DNA of 64,000 nucleotides from Trichuris trichiura (Eukaryota; Nematoda; Enoplea; Trichinellida; Trichuridae), in the NCBI GenBank assembly GCA_037903355.1, contig JBAJFE010000060.1, forward strand, positions 868,001 through 932,000, read 5' to 3'. Positions within the stretch are counted from its first letter, which is position 1. Every line of letters starts with the position of its first letter. The notes beneath the pieces were generated by a model. It saw only the letters and a program-made list of their open reading frames with translations, had not been told where the DNA came from and did no database searches. Made by a program: the position numbers and the translations under genes. Shown here piece after piece: positions 13,301 to 57,085 of this stretch.

Positions 13301-16300
13301 GCCTAAGCTCAAGCTTAACATTAAACTTGTGGACACATACGCGGTATAGGGGCCATTATATATGTAGGTATGATTGGGCGTTACTGGGTTGAATAGATGA
13401 GTGAGTCGAGAGTCAAACTAGCCCTGTGGCCTAGGTTACACGGCTCTCCTGGATATGCCTTTCCGTGGTAGCGGAGCAGAGAAACCTGATTGGCCACAAG
13501 AAGCGGAGTTTTTGCTGTAAGAAAACATATGTAATTGAAAGGTATCCTTTATTTAGCAGCACTAAACGCATTACTCTTAAAAGGCGTCCCTCGCGATGCG
13601 TTTTAGTTCCTTTCGAATTTTTACCGCCATCGCTTAAAAGTTTAAGCTCATCAACTTTATAAGGTCATCATGGTTAGGAATTTTTTCATTGTTTGATCAT
13701 TTGGTATTGTATAGTATCTCTTCAGCTGTGTGTTGGCTTCTGTTTAAAGAGAAGGTTGATGGTATTACTACGAACATTGAGGCATGGAACAGATGCGATG
13801 GTTAATTCTTTTCAAAGCAGTTAGAAAGAGCGCACGTTCGTCTATGCCATAGTTTCTCAACCTTTTTTGCGCCAGGGCCCCCCTGGGCTTTGTCAGGGCC
13901 CACCAGGGCCCCCCTAGACTCGCCAGGGCCCCCAGATGGCGCAGGACGGTTTGGTCAACGCTGATTGGTCCTTTTTACTCTTACACGGACTGGACGCATG
14001 GCAGGCGCCCGTTGATCTTGTGTAGCGACCTTACAGTTATGTTTGACTGTTCGCAGTGGTCAAGCGAAAAGCGCATGCTTGTAGTTCACCTGATCTTCGC
14101 TCAGCACCTGCAACGTTGACTGGTGCTTCTTCCGCCGCGGAAAAGTTGCCGGAACTTGTCGTATCCGTTTTTTGCCTTTATTACTGTTCGCAAGAGCTTG
14201 GACTGCGTTCATAGAAAAGGGGCAATGCAATTCCTGTATATAGCTTTATGGCACCTTTATGTATCGCCAAATAAGCAAATGACTAATGCAACGACTGGAT
14301 TTGCCGCGACGAAACTAACTTCTGGACGTTCGGCTTGAAATTAGTGAGGCGCAGTCGCAGGTCTCCTCGCTTTGCTATTTGCAATCGGTTTCTCTTTTTC
14401 GTCAGGAGGTCCGCGACTACGCTAAACCCCCTTTCGGCCGGATATGTCGAAGGAAAGGCGATCAGCAATTTGCGCGCGATGTTCCATAAGCCTGGGTATG
14501 ATTCTGCAATGCCTCGTTGAAGCCAGAAGGCTTGGTAGCCATTCTTTAAAAATTTCACCTTTAATTCTTCGTTCGCCTGCAGTTCCACAAGTTCTTCCTG
14601 TAGTTCTAGCTCCGCGGCGTCCGCGGCTGAAAAGGGGTCAATTACCCAGCTTGGCACTTCCATGCCAAGAATATCCTCATACCGTGCGGAAAGATCATGG
14701 TGCAGCATGTCTAGGTGCTGGCAGTAGGCTTCGACATCGTCATCTTTGATCTCCACCTTTTCTTGCAAGGCGCAAAGGTTTGGAAACTGGCCTAGCTCTC
14801 TACGTGCCAAATTGCGCCTGAACAAAGGAAGTTTTCTGACGAACCCGCACACAGCGGCTTTTGTCGTGATTTGATTAAGTTCGTCTCCCTGGAGAAGAAG
14901 ATTCATCTCGTTGAACTTAAAATACAAATCTGCCAAGTAGGCTATGTCGGACTCACGTTTCTTCAGGTTTTCACACAAGGCATTGTCGTGGGAAGCGAAA
15001 AATTCTACAACCGCTTCGAAAAGGCAATAAAATCGCGTAAGACAGGCGCCCTTTGAAAGCCATCGCACCTCGGTGTGCAGGAGCAAACGACTGTATTCTG
15101 CGTCGCTTTCTTCGCACAACTGTCTGAACAACCTGTCATTGAGCGGACTGCTTTTGATTTTGTTGATCGCATTTATTACTAACCGTAACGAAGAATTCAG
15201 CCGATTGCTGAGACGCTTTGCTGCCAAATGTTCTCTGTGGATCACACAGTGAACCGCGACGATATCCGGCAGATTTGTTTTAAATGCGCAATGAAGCCAC
15301 GCTGCCTTCCCGTCATCGCCGGCGCTCCGTCAGTGGCTACTGCGGTTATATTTGAAAGCGGTATTTCTTTTTCCTCAAAGAAGTCTTTTAGGACGAGGAA
15401 AATCGATTCCCCTCTCGTGTCAGTTACCAATTCCTTCGCGAAAAGCATTTCCTGAACCACTTGCTCCGCTTTTATGAATCGCACATAGGCCAAAAGGAGA
15501 GCCTCATTGCCGGGTAGGATGGACTCGTCAAGTTGTAGCGAGAATTGCGTGGTTTTTAGAAACTCGCACAGCGTTTGCTCAACATCCGCAGCCATATCAT
15601 CGATACGACGCTGGACAGTGTCGTTACTGAGGGAAACCTTCTTGATTACGTCTGCAGCAGGTATATGTAATACTGTGTTAAGCACTTCACTTACTACTGG
15701 AATCAGAAGTTCTTCTCCGATGGTGTGCGCTTTACCGCTTTTCGCGATCAGCAAAGAAATATTACATGACGCAAGCAGGCCATCGTGCTCTTGCGTTCTC
15801 GACGTCGATGGAAGCGATCTATCCAATTTAGGGCGCCTGAGAAATCTTTCGTGGAGCGATTGAAAATACGCCAGATTCTTGTTGGCTTTATCTGGATGTA
15901 TATTGTGCAAATGTTTGACCATCTTACAGGGTCTCATCGACTCATTTGAAAACTTCCTCTCACATAACAGACACATCGGAGCCTTCATGTTACCAGGCGA
16001 CGCAACGAAACCATACTTCAGATATTCAGCATTGTACTGCCGGCACTTTTTCTTGCTTTCTGACATGATTCAATCTGTAAAAATTTATTTCTTCCAAATG
16101 GCGAATTGAGCGCACTGCAATTGCAGTTCCTTAGCCAATACTAACACTGTTGCAGTAGCAAACGTGAAATGACCACCGAAAGTCCGTTTTTCAAGACTTC
16201 TTTCCTCGCATTTGCTGGTGCGCAACTCCTGTTTTGTCTACTATACTTCCTTAGGAATAGAACTGATAACTGTTTTTAAATCACAACCTCAGGAACCGCG

Positions 16301-40984: not shown

Positions 40985-41690
40985 GGTAAACCTTGACGCG
41001 GCGTGAAAATGGATCGACGCCTGCCAGCTTGACTTTACAAGTGTTTAACGCAGAAAAACGTGTTGACGTCGCGTCAAGATGGTTTCTCGTTTGCCGGTTT
41101 GATGCTTGCAACGTTATGAATTTACAACGTTTTGACGCCGCGTCAAGATGGTTCGACGTCTGCCGGTTCGACGCTAGCACCGTTTTGACTTTACAACGTT
41201 TTGGCGCCGCGTCAAAATGGTTCGCCATCTCCCGGTTTGACGCTGGAAACGTTTTGACTTTACAGCGTTTTGACGCCGCGTCAAAATGGTTTGACGTCTG
41301 CCGGTTTGACGCTGGAAACGTTTTGACTTTACAACGTTTTGGCGCCGCGTCAAAATGGTTCGCCGTCTCCCGGTTTGACGCTGGAAACGTTTTGACTTTA
41401 CAACGTTTTGGCGCCGCGTCAAAATGGTTCGCCGTCTCCCGGTTTGACGTTGGAAACGTTTTGACTTTACAGCGTTTTGACGCCGCGTCAAAATGGTTCG
41501 CCGTCTTCCGGTTTGACGCTGGAAACGTTTCGACTGTACAATGTTTTGACTCTGCGTCAAGATGGTTTGCCGTCTGCCGGTTCGACGCTTCCAACGTTTC
41601 GAGTTTACAACGTTTTGACGCTGCGTCAAGATGGTTCGACGTCTGTCAGTTCGACGCTGGCAACGTTTTGACTTTTGTGTGACCAGTTGA
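40985..41690. repeat. 69-bp minisatellite, about 9-10 units
   Basis: Tandem units of 69 bp (23 codons) run through this region, with the core cgccgcgtcaaaatggttcg. Each unit is built from two related half-motifs around TTTGACGC / GCGTCAAA. Degenerate units lie at 40803-41090. Because 69 is a multiple of three and the unit has few stops, one plus frame and two minus frames stay open for 170-230 codons. I do not call a protein from these. Confidence 0.92.
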
Positions 41691-41800
41691 GCGTATTGAT
41701 CCTGCACAGTTTTTTCCTAATAATCGCTCATCTACTCGCTGGTAGAACGATTGTTTCGCTTGAATTACAGATACCAAGCAGGTAGAAACAGGAAAAGCCG
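41690..41800 (+). repeat. Solo arm of the family 2 foldback
   Basis: The sequence cgctcatctactcgctggtag, then ttcgcttgaattacagatacca and aggaaaagccgtaaaag, matches the right arm of the foldback at 44080-44165. No partner arm is seen, so this looks like a truncated copy. Confidence 0.65.
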
Positions 41801-41974
41801 TAAAAGTTCTAGAAGACTATGAAACTTCATCCCGTTACGAAGCATCCAGTTTTCAAGACTATTTAAATAAACTGATATCATTTTTAAAAAACAGTTGTTT
41901 TAACCGGGACCATACGTTTTCATGTTCGAATTGTTTTCTCATGCGGAGTACGTCTCGCTGAAAAACGAAAAGCT

Positions 41975-42040: not shown

Positions 42041-42435
42041 AATAGCAAATGCAATGTCGTCATTCAATCGGTTTAACGGTTTAAAACGAGTATTGTAAAG
42101 TTTTGTCTTTGAAGCTTCTCCGTCTGTCAACCGACTGCGACCCTTGTTGTGTACATGTTTTACTACTTTTCCATGTACATATTATTCTATTTTTCATAAT
42201 TTACTCCACTGTTCATTTCACGTATGTAGTATCCATTTGCCTTTTTTTCCATATATACTCATTCGTTTTACGTTTATTCCATCTTGTTCCATGTAAATTT
42301 ACGGTATCTATTTTTTAATATTTCCATGTAAGGTAATCCATTTTTTCACTTGTTCCCTGTGCTCGCGTACGCAATCAAATTAATCAGCAGCAATTGCAGC
42401 GCATGATAATGGTCGTCCATAATTCACCTATTTTC

Positions 42436-43069
42436 GCTCTTTAATTGGGGTTGTATGTTTCATTGCGTTTAATGTGCAGGACTTCATTAATTCGTCCTAA
42501 TCGTAAGTTACTTTCATAGCATAAAAGTTTTGGTTGAAAAAGCCGGTCACGTTGTCCTTCGTATTCCACTACAGCGGAGGATTGAATAGCTTTTTCCATG
42601 GTAGCACTTGGATCAAGTGTCGGTCTTCCATGTTGAGCGATTGGAGTGCTACAGTTGCTAAGAATGGTTTTTGCGTTATTGTAACTATTGCGCTTTTTGT
42701 ATGTGTTCATTAAACCTATGTTCCAGAGTATGTAATGCTTTTGTACGGGACTATAAGCTTTCATATTGGAATCTCTTTATAACGGATTCGATGTCCCGTT
42801 GAAACGTAGAATAAACAAACAGTTTTTTCTCTCTGGAGAAAAAAAACTGTTTGTTTATTCTACGTTTCAACGGGACATCGAATCCGTTATAAAGAGATTC
42901 CAATATGTTCCAGAGTATTGCCTGCTTCCTCAATGTGCACTCCTGAACAAGCACATTCGACTGCGTAAACTGAACCTGTTTTTCTATTTGCAAGCATTTT
43001 TGTTTTCTGACATCTTGATACACGAAATAAATTGAAAATAAAGGTAGTCACAATAAAATAGCACCGCAT
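42436..43069 (-). pseudogene. PLE 3' fragment (GIY-YIG endonuclease end), interrupted by a hairpin insert
   Basis: On the minus strand, 42985-42915 encodes SVYAVECACSGVHIEEAGNTLEH, the GIY-YIG domain start of a Penelope-like element. The continuation after the insert (42730-42441) encodes SYNNAKTILSNCSTPI, RPTLDPSATMEKAIQSSAVV and LLCYESNLRLGRINEVLHIK, matching the C-terminus of the PLE at 53.3-56.1 kb. YIGQTG is degraded to HIEEAG. Frameshifts and the 172-bp insert (42732-42903) destroy the frame. Only the 3' end remains, as expected for a 5'-truncated retroelement. Confidence 0.85.
42717..42918. mobile_element. 172-bp palindromic PLE-derived insert with 15-bp target duplication
   Basis: TATGTTCCAGAGTAT occurs at 42717-42731 and again at 42904-42918, flanking an insert of 172 bp. 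The insert has near-perfect arms (42766-42833 and 42837-42903) around a centre reading TCTCTGGAGA, plus 34 nt of single sequence at the left with gtacgggac. The right arm (ctgtttgtttatt, then caacgggacatcgaatccgt) resembles the PLE tail after its hammerhead-like core (ctgtttatatag, then aaacgggacacatccgt at 56088-56122). The palindrome centre corresponds to the CTCCGGAG of that core. Confidence 0.85.
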
Positions 43070-43805: not shown

Positions 43806-44177
43806 TCGTGGTTGTAAGGTTTTATACGGCTTTTCCCGTTTATTTTGTCTGTGCTAGTATCTGTAACTGAACGAAACAACTGCTCTACCAACGGATGGAT
43901 GAGCCGTTATTAAGAAAAAGTGTACAGGTATCAATGCACTCAACTTTTAATTTCAAAGCTTTGGAACAATGCAATGGAGCTCCGTCCTCCATCTCACTGA
44001 CGACGGAACTAGAGCATTCTGAAAGTACTGAAATTAAAAGTTAAGTGCATTGATACCTGTACAATTTTTCTTAATAACGGCTCATCCATCCGTTGGTAGA
44101 GTAGCTGTTTCGTTCAATTACAGATACCAGCACAGGCAAAATAAACGGGAAAAGCCGTAAAAGACCTTGCAACCATG
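43806..44177. repeat. Foldback element with about 150-bp arms (family 2)
   Basis: Left arm about 43806-43955 and right arm about 44029-44177 are inverted copies. Both contain the ccatccgttggtaga / tctaccaacggatgg block shared with 1-185. Between them lies ctcaCTGACGA (43997-44003), a weak stem GGAA/TTCT, then GAAA (44021-44024) and GTAC. This is the same motif order as in the window-start element. Inner arm sequence differs between the copies, so the family has conserved outer arms and a conserved core but a variable middle. Confidence 0.85.
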
Positions 44178-44302
44178 AAACAACAGCACGTTACGGCGCA
44201 TCCTATTTTCAAGAATTTTACAATGTTATTTTTATGCATCTCACCGTTTAATAGACCTCCAATCGACGCTCTGCAATAGAATAAAACGCATACAGATGCT
44301 AA

Positions 44303-44412: not shown

Positions 44413-44461
44413 CTTTTCCACCTTTTGACATCACGACTATTTATAACACTACTGCACATAA

Positions 44462-44580
44462 AAGAGATGTACATGGATTTTTCCCGTTTTGCATTTGCCC
44501 ATAAAACGAGTTAAAAAAGTGAAAAGGCTTTAATGCAAAACAATGCAAAACGGAAAAAATCCATGTACATCTCTTCTATG
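44462..44580. repeat. Short foldback
   Basis: Arms agagatgtacatggattttt (from about 44464) and aaaaaatccatgtacatctc (to about 44574) flank a loop rich in cgttttgcat / atgcaaaacg. The stem is about 33 bp and there is no coding content. Confidence 0.75.
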
Positions 44581-44672: not shown

Positions 44673-44850
44673 ATTTGGTTGCTTCTTTTTGTACGGATTT
44701 TTATGTCCCGTTGAAAAAACTTTTATTACTAAAATGTCCGGAGCGTTCGGGTCATTCGAGACCCGTCACCAGCGGTCTTAAGTTGTAAATATTGTAAAAA
44801 TCCGTACAAAAAGAAGCAACCAAATGAAATTATACGGTCCCGTACGAAGA
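44673..44850 (-). repeat. Foldback carrying PLE hammerhead-like core
   Basis: Arms of about 31 bp (from atttggttgcttctttttgt at 44673 and its complement to 44825) enclose a minus-strand segment nearly identical to the PLE 3' end. It reads tacaacttaagaccg, then CTGGTGA (44772-44766), helix II CGGGTC/GACCCG and GAACGCTCCGGA. The first core motif carries an A-to-G change and GAAA reads GAAC, so this copy should be catalytically dead. Downstream, tacggtcccgtacgaaga resembles sequence near 8890. Confidence 0.8.
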
Positions 44851-52131: not shown

Positions 52132-55100
52132 TTAAGCGATTGGTGCAACGACCAACATGTTGTCCATACACTGCTTAAGGACTTCAAGGAAATCGGTCTT
52201 CAAATCAGGTACAATTTGCAAAAGCGATAACATCTGGTTGATGCTGACAAAAACGCTGTTCATAAACAAGTCTGTATGTGCGTTCGAATTCAAGTCTTGT
52301 CTGGTAGATTGCTGAACAATTGAAAGAGAAAACGTCATTTAGAAAAATGGACAAATTTGGAAACTAACCGATGCTATCATCTTGCCTGCCATTTGTTCAA
52401 AGAAATCGCTCATAAGCATAAGCATCGCGCACGTATCCAATGATGTTTGCCCAATTGCTGGTTGGTCATCGGACGTCTTTCGGGAATTTTTTCTCGGTTC
52501 CCTCTTTTTAAATGTACGCCACCACTTGAGCTTATCGCAAGCCACGTCCATGGGCTCCATAGGTTTTTCAAAACTGGCCGGATCGGGAGGAGGCAACGGA
52601 TATGAGGAGAAAAGCTCGGAAAAATCTATCTCATCCAACGAAGCAAAACCCAACACTTCTTCCTCTGTACCGTACTGCTCTTCTTCAATTTCCTTCCCGC
52701 TAGTAGGAGATAAATCAGCATCCATCTTAGCGGAAATACCCATTTTCGATTCAGCCTTCTCTTTACAGCCAACCTTCCATCGCTTAAAATGACAATGACG
52801 TAAGAGTAACAAATAAACATTAAGCTGACGTAAGCAAAGCATCACCATCAGCAGTGCTACGTCATCCTGGCAACATTAATGAATAAAAACACGTCCCATC
52901 GCATGTTTCACTTTGGAACTCCAATGCTTAAATTTTTATAAATGGGGAAATGGATTGCCTGAAGAATCAACCAGCCATAGCGTCAAAGGAAATAAATCTT
53001 TTAAAATGTTTAAAGCGATTAATGAGACAGGTTTTCGTAGAACCTAATTTCTTTGGCGAATCAACGTTGCTTAAAAGCTGTAAACACATTTTCTCAACGC
53101 TGCAACAGATCAGTTCCTTTCGCATTTGAAACTCGGAAAGACCGCAGCGCGAAAGGGACAAATAGTAGCCTCTGCAATTTGAAAACTTCAAAGTGAAAAA
53201 AATACTTTCCCCCGCAAACAAGGTAATAAAAAGCCTGAGCAGACTGGAACGGCCTACAACGCAAACCCATAAGCACATGCGCATACACAGACCTAATGAC
53301 TTTAGCCTTTAAAAAACGGCCATATTAGAAGGGACAAATATTTTGGACATTTGGAACATATACGTATCAAAGCGGGTCTTACACAAGGTCAACTAACTTT
53401 CCTACTGAAATGCAGAAATCAAGAAATCCTACCAAAGTGCTTCCACTTAAAATGGGGACAGTACATGGATAGTCAATCAAAAAGAATCCTATTTTCGGCT
53501 GGAATGTCTCTACTACGAAATGTTATACGGAGACACAGATACACACTATCGAGACTGCGAGAGGATTATAGTAGCACATTAGCGTTCCTCAGAAGCAGAC
53601 TACACAGAACACTTTACGAGAACCTGGTGAAGCATGCGGACCTTGCCACACGAACAGTTTGCTCATCACAAAAACAGGTACTAAAATCGAAATTTCATAG
53701 CATTCGAGACAATATTCCGACAACGTCTTCAAACCCTTACAGAAATATTCCACAAAGAACTCCTAGGTCACAGCTAAATTCAGCGATAATAAATCTCAGC
53801 TCATTCCCTCTAAGTGAAAATGAGAAGCATATATTAGAAAAAGGACTTAACTTCGTCCCAACACCAAAACAACCACCACTTCTCGACATCACTGCCTCAG
53901 TTGAAGACAGCCTATCTTCGACGGACACACAGAAAGCCACGCAGATCAAGAGTAATTTATCTACATTGATCCTAGGCCACCACTTCACTGCCACTTCGAA
54001 CCTAAGCCGATATGAGATTAACAGCTTATATAAACTTAGAAAGCAACCCAACAGAATTATAACCAAAGTAGATAAAGGGAATAGAATCGTCTTACTTGAC
54101 AGAAGCACCTACATCGAAAAGATGACAGCTATCTTGAACACCAGCAATTATACCCCTCTACCAACCGACCCTACAGAAGTTTCCCGAAAAAATCTCCGAT
54201 CTCTTCTCATTACATATGCCACAGAAACCAAAGAACCTGCTATCACGAAAATGACAACATATCTTAAGTTTGCATCGAACTTCAGACCCCCCGAGCTCTA
54301 TGGTCTCCCAAAAGTACACAAACCAGATATCCCGCCGAGACCGATAGTCTCCACAATTAACAGCATCACCACTGAACTCAGTAGATACTTAAGTAAGATC
54401 ATCAAACCTCTAACAGGCAAGGAACCATCCTTTCTCAAAAACAGCAAAACGCTCGTCAACGAAATAAGAAACTATTGTTTGGAACCCGACGAGATTTTAA
54501 TCAGCTATGATGTAAAAGACTTATTTCCCAGCATCCCAACATCAGACACCCTAGAAACATTAAACAATCTCCTCCACACGGACACAAATCTACCCAGCAG
54601 AACTAAATTAAATCCCTTTCACATTGTCAAACTGGTTTCGTTTTGCATGCAAGAAGGCAATTATTTCACTTTTGATAACAAGTTCTATAAACAATCTAAC
54701 GGAGTACCTATGGGAAGCCCCCTATCCCCTGTATTAGCGGAAATCTTTATGGAAAACTTTGAAAGACAAATGTTCAGAACTATAGACAGACACATAGCTC
54801 CACGCCTTTTTAAAAGATACGTAGACGACATCTTTGTCATTATAAAAGCTGGAAAAGAAGAACAATTTTTACAATTCCTCAACAACGTCCGTCCTAACCA
54901 AATAGTCTTCACAATGGAAAAAGAAGATAACAAAACTTTGCCCTTTCTAGACGCCTTAATTATTCGCTCAAGCGAAGGCCTTAAAACCAGAGTGTATAGG
55001 AAACCCACGCACACATATCAGTACCTTAATTTTTCATCACATCACCCACGATCAGTAATGCGTGGTATCCTCTTTGGAATGATAGACAGAGCATTCAACT

Positions 55101-57085
55101 TATGCAGTCCCGAATATCTTCAGCCAGAAATTAACTACATTAGAAAAATCTTCTACAAAAACGGTTATCCTAAATCCTTTATCAACCAAGTGCTCAACCA
55201 CAAGCTTCGCACACGTGAGTCTCCAGAGCAAAACACTCCGCACGACACTTGTCTGGTTATTCCTTATGTGGCAGGTTTAGGCGAAAAGATTGTCCAATTA
55301 GGAAAAAGATTAGGCTTCAGAGTCTTCTTCAAGAGTTCGCCCAACTTCAGGGCAATTCTTCGCACAGACAAAACTAAAATCCCCGCAAACAAAAAGACAG
55401 GATTAGTATACGCGGTTGAATGTTCTTGCTCAGGGATTTATATTGGTTAAACGGGAAACACCCTAGAGCATAGATTCAATAAACACATAAAAAAACTCAC
55501 AAGTTACAATAACGCGAAAGCCATACTTAACAATGGTACCAATCTAACCACACAGCGAGGCAGACCAATCGTGGACCCAAAAATTACAATGGAAAAAGCC
55601 AAACAAGCTTCTGCTGTAGTGGAACACGCGACGCAATGCACTCAACCACTCCACCCAAGAGTTTTATGTTACGAAAACATTTTACAGTTAAGAAGAATTA
55701 AAGAAGCATTATATATTAGACATAATACGACATACAACTGCGATCAAGGAGTGGACATAAGCGAGATTTGGACAAATATTGTGACGCGGTATAATTGTTG
55801 CACACTCATCAGATGAAATACAATAGCCGGGAAAGAAGAAAAAACAAATAATTAGAACAAACAGAAATGGACAAAACTGCAATATAAATGGAACAAAGAA
55901 AGAAAAAGAAAAAAAAGAAAAAAAGAAGTGCGCTGACAGACTCAAATACAAAAACCTACAAACAGAAGGCTTTAAAATACGCGCTTTAAAATCCTCAGAA
56001 TCGATAGATGGCACTCGCTGGCACAATTCATATTTACAACTTAAGACCGCTGATGATGGGTCTCGAATGACCCGAAAGCTCCGGAGTCTGTTTATATAGA
56101 AAACAAACGGGACACATCCGTAATAAATTTCTTCATCATGAAAATATTTTAACGTTTATACCTCCTTTTCAGTTTTGCTGAGTCGTTTCCACCCAGATGC
56201 CATTAGGGCACAGAAATTTGGAGTATTTAGCAATTCGGGAGATTCCACTTCCAGTCGCGCACATTCGGAATCAAACCAATTACGATAAGCACTACCACGC
56301 CTGGGACGTTTCAGATGAGATGTTTGAGGTAGAGCTGGCGATTTAACTTCTTCAGGCATAGCCGCAATAGGCATACTGGGAGATCCGGAAGAAACGGAAG
56401 CAATGGTCATTTCAAAGGCTAAATCTTTGCTGCTCGTCTTCTTGCTACGTTTGGCGGGCGGATGTTCTTTTTCTATTCCTGACGATGTTACCTTGAAGCG
56501 ATTTATTCCTGTTGGCTTTAACTTAATTTTAAATTGCCCGCTCGTCACCGGTTCCGCCGCCGGCAAGGGTGCCACGAATTCCGCCGGCTGAGCCATACTT
56601 GTCGACGGAGTAACATTTTCCTCAGCTTTTCTGTTTTCCTTTGCTTTCTGCCTTTCGGCAGTGCTTGCCTTCGAAGCAGACTTCGATTTCGGGGTGCTTC
56701 TCGCCTTTTTACGTTGCGGAGATGCGGGTCGGTCAATGGACGACAATTCCATAGTGCTTGCTTTACCTCGCTTCACCGGAAGCGTTACAAAGTCGTCGGA
56801 GAACCGCTTTTGCTTTCGAACACGTTTTCCAATTTCCATAGACGACCCAACAACATTTGAACGTCCTCTCGCGGAAGCACCTTCTGGCATTATGTCACTC
56901 TCTCTACAGTTTGTTGGTGTAACCAAGCTCTGTTCCATAACATGCGAAGGGGAAGCATTTTGCGGACCTTTCTCAGCAATATTATCAAGTAAAGCACACG
57001 AGGTAGCCTCGCTGACACTAGCGTCGCCTTTTTCGTTTGTCTTTTCGTCACGCATGCCTTCTCCTTCTGGATCAACCAGCGACAT
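52132..57085 (-). CDS. HMG-box protein, HMGXB4-like
   Basis: Three minus-strand exons: 57085-56162, 52782-52369, 52311-52132 (1518 nt, 505 aa), introns phase 0. Residues 1-250 are low complexity and basic with putative nuclear localisation patches (KRVRKQKR, RKKARSTPKSK, PPAKRSKK). An HMG box begins near residue 264 (RRGSAYRNWFDSECARLE, then NFCALMASGWKRLSKTEKE) and is interrupted by intron 1, finishing with RWKVGCKEKAESK. The C-terminal 90 residues (DTCAMLMLMSDFFEQMAGKM to DNMLVVAP) resemble the conserved helical end of HMGXB4, a DNA-binding nuclear protein linked to transcription regulation. That assignment is from remembered family pattern; the HMG box itself is clearer. Intron 1 (56161-52783) holds a Penelope-like element in the opposite direction. 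Confidence 0.8.
53351..55816 (+). pseudogene. PLE reverse transcriptase / GIY-YIG endonuclease with one nonsense codon
   Basis: An open frame of 699 codons runs to a TAA at 55448-55450 and then continues in the same frame to 55816 (821 codons in all). The first in-frame ATG is at 53465, so the true N-terminus may be lost or upstream. RT blocks in order are ITKVDKGNRIVLLDR, LYGLPKVHKPDIPPRPIVS, ISYDVKDLFPSIP, SNGVPMGSPLSPVLAEIFME, the catalytic RYVDDIFVI (YVDD at 54818-54829), and LPFLDALI with the thumb TRVYRKPTHT. The GIY-YIG domain reads GLVYAVECSCSGIYIG, then stop, then TGNTLEHRFNKH. The stop replaces the usual glutamine of YIGQTG (CAA to TAA). This single change should truncate the endonuclease while the RT stays intact. 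Confidence 0.9.
56041..56095 (+). ncRNA. Candidate hammerhead ribozyme motif at PLE 3' end
   Basis: CTGATGA at 56050-56056 is followed by a 5-bp helix II (GGGTC 56058-56062, GACCC 56069-56073), GAAA 56074-56077, the palindrome CTCCGGAG 56079-56086, and GTC 56086-56088. Hammerheads of this minimal type are established in Penelope-like elements of many animals. A single G (56078) sits extra beside the short helix III. I could not pair 56041-56049 with 56089 onward convincingly as helix I, so activity is uncertain. Confidence 0.5.

Follow-up and report, generated by a model that had tools for sequence, protein, structure and literature searches.

The present analysis concerns a palindromic insert at 42717-42918 in a 64,000-nucleotide stretch of the Trichuris trichiura genome (the window, which lies in contig C47), together with its relatives across the 72.7-Mb genome. 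The structure consists of two head-to-head copies of the pseudo-long terminal repeat (pLTR) end of a Penelope-like element (PLE), one bearing a tail of about 31 nt and the other starting near the ATG just upstream of that tail, with a target duplication around the whole. The insert is almost certainly a very short PLE insertion made by the PLE enzymes of this genome. The best explanation of the structure as a whole, to which we give a probability of about two in three, is PLE insertion primed from both target strands with the two cDNAs joined in the middle; that both strands were primed, as opposed to one cDNA snapping back on itself, is the less certain part of this explanation. In the family at large every duplicated pair has a tail at one end and none at the other (a one-tail rule), both junctions look target-primed and the joins look like end joining, and the many relatives of the hairpin suggest that PLEs often begin copying from both broken strands at once.

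The 15-bp direct repeat TATGTTCCAGAGTAT stands at 42717-42731 and again, as an exact match, at 42904-42918, and because the two copies start 187 positions apart the insert between them measures 172 bp (42732-42903). Most of it is filled by an inverted repeat with arms of 72 nt (42762-42833 and 42836-42907) that are 99% complementary and 2 nt apart, while the first 30 nt (42732-42761) have no inverted counterpart. The parts of the insert and its host are as follows.

42378..42716, minus strand: older PLE, coding downstream of the insertion point (..SYNNAKTILSN..; 52% identity to the PLE at 53306, 107 residues)
42717..42731, no strand: target site duplication, left copy, TATGTTCCAGAGTAT, antisense of native PLE codons for NTLEH
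42732..42761, minus strand: tail of 30 nt, at one end of the insert only; in sense it follows the ATG (plus-strand CAT at 42762-42764)
42762..42833, minus strand: left arm, pLTR sequence, sense on the minus strand
42831..42838, no strand: palindrome centre CTCTGGAG, where the native sequences of both arms overlap by 8 bp
42836..42903, plus strand: right arm, inverted pLTR piece without tail; the repeat extends through TATG of the duplication to 42907
42904..42918, no strand: target site duplication, right copy
42919..43015, minus strand: older PLE, coding upstream of the insertion point, containing KTKMLANRKTGSVYAVECACSGVHIEEAG

The host is a degraded minus-strand PLE, both sides of which (43015-42932 and 42698-42378) are matched by a fuller PLE copy in the window at 53306-55816. 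Read on the minus strand, the right flank with its repeat gives ..EEAGNTLEH and the left repeat with its flank gives TLEHRFNEHIQK; the fuller copy shows TGNTLEHRFNKHIKK at the place matching the NTLEH repeat. One copy of TATGTTCCAGAGTAT is native PLE coding sequence (NTLEH), and the other is therefore a target duplication. An earlier sequence-only reading had described a PLE-tail palindrome, flanked by a target duplication of 15 bp, inside an older PLE, and the exact repeat, the 99% arms and the native NTLEH copy bear this out; the concern that the flanking repeat was mere parent PLE sequence is answered by one copy being native and the other duplicated. As that reading also had it, the inverted repeat is centred on the CTCCGGAG palindrome, which is spelled CTCTGGAG in the window and CTCCGGAG in, for example, the relatives L003 and L005, and complementarity is present at the join. 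The arms belong to the pLTR of a PLE subfamily related, though not identical, to that of 53306-55816. Two further family members split a PLE open reading frame (ORF): in C16:906756 the break falls between residues of about 174 and 183, and in C2:2013656, which has a single arm, it lies near residue 651-653.

Searches of the genome returned 198, 961 and 722 first-look candidates, the best 40 of which were scored in each. Among the best 40 of 198 for the insert, only its own site matched across the whole 202 bp, other near-full-length matches being 69-75% identical; the search that the sequence-only reading had proposed thus gave no second full copy among those scored, but it did reveal a large related family. 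A pattern of the outer 26 nt (up to 2 mismatches) occurs at 100 places against 0 for the reversed control, and a 29-nt tail pattern occurs at 227 places and a core pattern at 199 (up to 3 mismatches), with controls at 0. A family sample of 119 loci, selected in part by the tail pattern and combined into 72 segments (154.5 kb in all), yielded 54 pairs of arms facing tail-out. Flanking repeats scoring at least 10 were present in 42 of these 54 pairs vs 3 of 432 mispaired controls, whose left and right flanks came from different sites, and the duplications of the 42 pairs are 10-20 bp long with 0-2 mismatches; the 11-16-bp target duplications sought across the family were in this way found, with a somewhat wider range. 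The 54 pairs contain three segmental duplicates (C1:4565880, C9:3638806 and C9:3664394), which are kept in the duplication count and dropped from the counts of duplication divergence, arm ends, primer marks and centres. Counts of arm ends and centres concern the 39 unique inserts with a score of at least 10 and a length below 700 bp, whose pLTR-only inserts measure about 106-310 bp; 12 unique pairs were left out, including C23:99050, in which the tailless arm appears about 65 nt longer.

Longer members of the family tie the hairpin to whole PLEs, and the window holds a fuller PLE copy for comparison.

53306..55816, plus strand: fuller PLE copy with reverse transcriptase (RT; PF00078) and a GIY-YIG-like region; in-frame stop at 55448-55450
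56020..56150, plus strand: pLTR region of the PLE at 53306, with hammerhead-like letters seen by eye (CTGATGA at 56050, then GACCCGAAAGCTCCGGAG) and a tail-like end

The reverse transcriptase match to PF00078 covers 53306-55450, and 42 nt of the pLTR region are shared at 86% with the family member C16:344361. The ORF of 53306-55816 matches 19 of the 72 family segments at E of 0.001 or less, some of the matches being neighbours or hosts, and in six members a PLE ORF match lies between both arms (C16:344361, C1:4805029, C1:5251845, C24:353697, C24:582500 and C24:792067). C16:344361 forms a palindrome of PLE sequence some 3 kb long; its arms measure 1.4 kb, are 96.4% alike and lie about 130 nt apart, and the 13-bp repeat GCCATTTTTATTT stands at both ends of the palindrome. 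C1:5049601 is a continuous palindrome of at least 1.49 kb (93.8% alike), and in C2:4407189 the arms extend over at least 558 bp (97.7% alike). Since members range up to PLE palindromes with kilobase-long arms, the 172-bp hairpin represents the short end of a range.

The ends of duplicated family members follow a pattern. In all 42 duplicated pairs (41 unique) the tailed end starts at native positions 1-13, counted from the tail tip, and the other end at 29-55; the inner start lies, in sense, at or slightly upstream of ..AATATGAAAAC, and in many relatives the ATG and tail read MKTYSPVQKHYIF or close variants. Because part of the sample had been selected by its tail, the tail-blind core pattern was also used. 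Among 100 of the 199 core places, set against a tail list of 100 of the 227 places, there were 23 neighbour pairs less than 800 bp apart (C9:3665938 in this list is again a segmental duplicate), all tail-out, of which 17 had one tail by pattern, 6 none and 0 two. Sequence gave one tail for two of the six (C7:3775163 and C9:3821696) and none for C1:5251845, three being unread, for a combined tally of 19 of 23 with one tail, 0 with two and 4 with no tail seen; no two-tailed pair occurred among the 17 of 23 read as sequence. The reading frame is open from the ATG through 13 tail codons in 28 rows. A motif search of 106 homologues found no N-terminus like the tail reading, no examined copy was seen to continue into the ORF, and a role of the tail as the start of the PLE ORF is a possibility at most.

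Both junctions also carry what appear to be primer marks. A recognisable tail tip is present in 28 of 41 inserts, and in 21 of these the target sequence at the tailed end closes with T (with TT in 13). At the tailless end AA, equivalent to TT on the would-be priming strand, opens the duplication in 16 of 41. In the flanks the background frequencies are T 0.32, TT 0.12 and AA 0.13, and boundary ambiguity may add to the marks. Partner arms differ from each other at 163 of 3597 positions (38 copies) and the paired duplications at 24 of 600 (41 copies), both figures being rough, since poor duplications were screened out. Some low arm identities come from very short arms. The two divergences are close, and the arms therefore began about as alike as the duplications, which suggests that one RNA, or RNAs of one locus, furnished both. 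Gene conversion between arms would leave them closer than the duplications, and no such excess was found. As to the possibility that the two arms had different RNA templates, both bases are common among other copies at 50 of the 163 discordant arm sites, a count without a null for comparison; the partner arm is the nearest relative in 18 of 38, and over a 37-column core no other right arm is nearer than the partner in 34 of 50.

Where the arms turn varies widely. Their last native positions span 68 to 218. At the join, 15 of the 39 inserts have arms whose native sequences overlap, by 1-19 nt, and in the other 24 a gap of 2-73 nt separates them. Overlaps of at least 3 nt are seen in 13 of 39 vs 43 of 400 simulated blunt joins, and filler of at least 3 nt in 22 of 39 vs 12 of 400, the filler count being possibly inflated by subfamilies absent from the reference panel; the filler of C1:4805029 matches PLE residues 50-77. 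Among the 39, a join at CTCTGGAG is found in the window copy only. The sequence-only reading had proposed a test for a breakpoint shared at the predicted hammerhead cleavage position, and the data do not support one: a single insert of the 39 turns at that palindrome, and of the 78 arm ends 5 lie at native 105-118. In a separate observation, 30 of 78 arm ends, and also the end of the one-armed copy C9:1350425, fall at native 150-169, a stretch containing a TGTGTG run next to the hammerhead-like core on its 5′ side in sense; the cluster might mark the end of an RNA or a stop of the RT, and short reference copies may overstate it.

We envisage that a PLE protein would cut both target strands 10-20 bp apart, and that the 3′ end at each cut would prime reverse transcription of PLE RNA, one cDNA beginning at the outer start and so including the tail, the other at the inner start without it. 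The two short and similar cDNAs would then be joined by their 3′ ends, through annealing at a palindrome or microhomology (here CTCTGGAG) or through filler, and filling in would yield the palindrome and the target duplication. The resulting hairpin is probably dead on arrival. It is conceivable, though we hold this only tentatively, that the two subunits of a PLE protein dimer lie one behind the other along a single RNA, that each subunit contributes one RT primed by one strand of the cut target, and that the tail corresponds to the spacing between the enzymes.

The most serious alternative, which we consider appreciably less probable than priming from both strands, is snap-back self-priming, in which a tailed, target-primed cDNA folds back at a palindrome or microhomology, copies itself as far as the vicinity of the inner start and joins the other target end. 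This was the idea of the sequence-only reading, and it is close to the self-priming proposed for rotifer PLEs, although the template there is antisense; such snap-back-like self-priming has been put forward for PLEs of Adineta vaga (PMC3846280). Turns often lie at complementary sequence, such as CTCTGGAG in the window copy, and the arms began alike, as snap-back would have it. Where arms differ by more than 8 nt the tailed arm is longer in 10 and the tailless in 9, and 20 of the 39 show no such difference. Because arm limits from local alignment are soft, a separate test set each central loop against native sequence and asked whether its orientation was that of the tailed arm or that of the tailless arm (38 inserts, C40:1374947 having no identifiable centre). 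The tailed arm owned the centre in 13, the tailless arm in 13, and 12 were undecided; at a score gap of at least 7 the tailless arm owned 11 and the tailed arm 6, and the window copy leans weakly to the tailed arm (15 v 12). Tailless-arm centres count against snap-back because snap-back of a tailed cDNA leaves only a tailed-arm centre. Priming across the palindrome, as first suggested, is thus possible for the window copy and fails for at least 11 of 38 inserts.

The clearest case against snap-back is made by three unrelated sites (C7:6423040, C57:196300 and C49:389820) that share the turn CCCGTT-TATTGT..ATCAACGGG. Their right arms continue natively (CCCGTTGAT..) and their left arms end at CCCGTT, a turn that is the reverse complement of what snap-back would give and that equals a 4-bp AACG/CGTT join of two cDNA ends; C57:196300 and C49:389820 are near equal by the arm-end measure and have a tailless-arm centre by the centre-owner test. 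Snap-back also leaves unexplained why back-copying should stop near the second RT start (native 29-55) and why a T-ended primer mark is seen at both junctions. Centres owned by either arm, joins with microhomology or filler, and arms that began alike fit two-strand copying better than simple snap-back. Snap-back is nonetheless possible for copies like that of the window, in which both arms end at one palindrome, or for those with a much longer tailed arm.

Several observations weigh against priming from both strands. Of the arm differences above 20 nt among the 39 inserts, 5 favour the tailed arm and 1 the tailless arm, and the tailed arm is also the longer one in two long members, C16:344361 and C2:4407189; large differences in that direction are the outcome expected from snap-back with a loop, although some arm asymmetry could have arisen by later deletion or flipping of the palindrome centre. 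Snap-back predicts the initial likeness of the arms directly, whereas two-strand priming needs one RNA or RNAs from one locus. The sample contains one two-tailed pair (C60:296800, without a convincing duplication) and one tailless pair (C1:5251845). Among 20 sites tested that have a tailed arm without a close partner, 4 one-armed copies have an exact 13-16 bp flanking repeat, counted without a shuffle control (C9:1350425, C2:2013656, C2:2103692 with an AT-rich repeat, and C7:2778300 with a repeat near the end of the examined DNA), and 14 have none; priming at both ends is therefore not obligatory.

Comparison with known systems bears on the same question. In L1 twin priming both target strands prime on the RNA and an inverted insertion results; there the second priming event falls within the RNA, which gives unlike halves, whereas here both primers would start at the same RNA end, and hence the halves repeat each other. 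The hairpin is of an already known kind: Penelope elements of Adineta vaga have inverted pLTRs with an optional 31-bp tail on one and palindromes at the inverted junction (PMC3846280), and the window insert shares with that kind its inverted pLTRs and its tail of about 31 bp. That paper describes target duplications, including ones of 8, 9 and 10 bp, and sequence other than the PLE ORF carried between pLTRs, and attributes the inverted copies to self-priming on an antisense template. The Adineta vaga copies it describes are few and mostly bear an ORF or captured sequence, whereas here there are 227 tail places, many pLTR-only inserts and duplications of 10-20 bp. Both-strand priming fits better here than the self-priming proposed there. 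The Poseidon PLE of Anolis carolinensis (PAc) cleaves and extends both target strands in vitro with a preference for ATT, and has two RT starts that bracket the tail and a hammerhead near the ORF start (PMC11167929), features with likely or, for the hammerhead, possible counterparts in the present family. In that assay no difference of RT start was seen between strands (PMC11167929), whereas here each duplicated pair in the genome combines both kinds of start; such a lack of strand difference would permit two-tailed and no-tail pairs, a further point against our explanation. The main text of that paper is without discussion of inverted copies and leaves the later insertion steps for validation (PMC11167929). 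A literature search, outside which most subscription papers fell, found no explanation of inverted PLE copies by both-strand priming, which is a weak negative.

It is very unlikely that the hairpin moves independently, through transcription and re-insertion in palindromic form. Many palindromic copies do have target duplications, and the CGTT join is common to three unrelated sites, but those sites have different variants in both arms, the arm ends span native 68-218 with turns that mostly differ, the best 40 of 198 matches included no second whole-insert copy, and longer members contain PLE coding. The claim of the sequence-only reading that mobility of a tiny hairpin was proved is accordingly not sustained; given the varying length and turn and the PLE coding in longer members, hairpins look newly made by PLE retrotransposition, and no sign was found of one moving again. 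Retrozymes are direct repeats with hammerhead ribozymes, and a retrozyme-like element with ends set by ribozyme cleavage is marginally less credible still. By eye the pLTR contains CTGAAGA, a stem II and GAAA-like letters, but Rfam hammerhead models gave no match in the window (E up to 1) and, with E up to 10, none in the pLTR stretch or in 13 loci, the arms are inverted, not direct (23 of 23 tail-blind neighbours tail-out), and the few arm ends near the predicted site are the 5 of 78 given above. A foldback or miniature inverted-repeat transposable element (MITE) type of DNA transposon, with equal inverted termini and a fixed duplication length, would account for inverted repeats and flanking duplications, but a tail at one end only, duplications varying over 10-20 bp and PLE coding within members make it scarcely worth considering.

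Regarding the fuller PLE copy, its stop codon falls within the GIY-YIG-like region, and GIYIG-TGNTLEHRF letters are seen at about 55430-55480 and in the host copy, though a 121-aa piece gave no Pfam match. Of the first 14 protein matches 13 are from Trichuris suis or T. muris, with identity of 42-64% and query coverage of 48-96% across all 14, and Anolis LOC134299269 is 32% identical to the window PLE protein. The palindrome of C16:344361, with its 1.4-kb arms, persists in the assembly. Near the insert an inverted repeat at 43806-44178 (arms of 157 nt, 91% complementary, 59 nt apart) is unlike the PLE family by eye, and similar letters seem present near 41690-41870, also by eye. Shorter inverted repeats lie at 44457-44580 (39 nt, 95%) and 44673-44825 (31 nt, 100%), and a minisatellite of nine copies of a 69-bp unit (88% matches) at 41057-41675. 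Two overlapping ORFs on the minus strand at 14283-16069, with one weak Dimer_Tnp_hAT match below cut-off, may represent a hAT-type transposase. The window hairpin (42795-42873) matches the Rfam microRNA-precursor models MIR7504, mir-8517, MIR2275 and mir-1537 below their gathering scores and is a likely source of false microRNA calls; PLE hairpins resemble microRNA precursors and could mislead annotation.

The question on which these hairpins bear is how PLEs finish insertion and why their copies are often head-to-head with a one-sided tail. Many tiny two-ended insertions record both RT starts as well as the join, and the question of PLE completion thereby becomes countable. The tandem dimer, if true, would account for the one-tail rule, the offset of 30-40 nt, the likeness of the arms at birth and the centre owned by either arm; PLEs would then insert head-to-head as a matter of course when they transpose.
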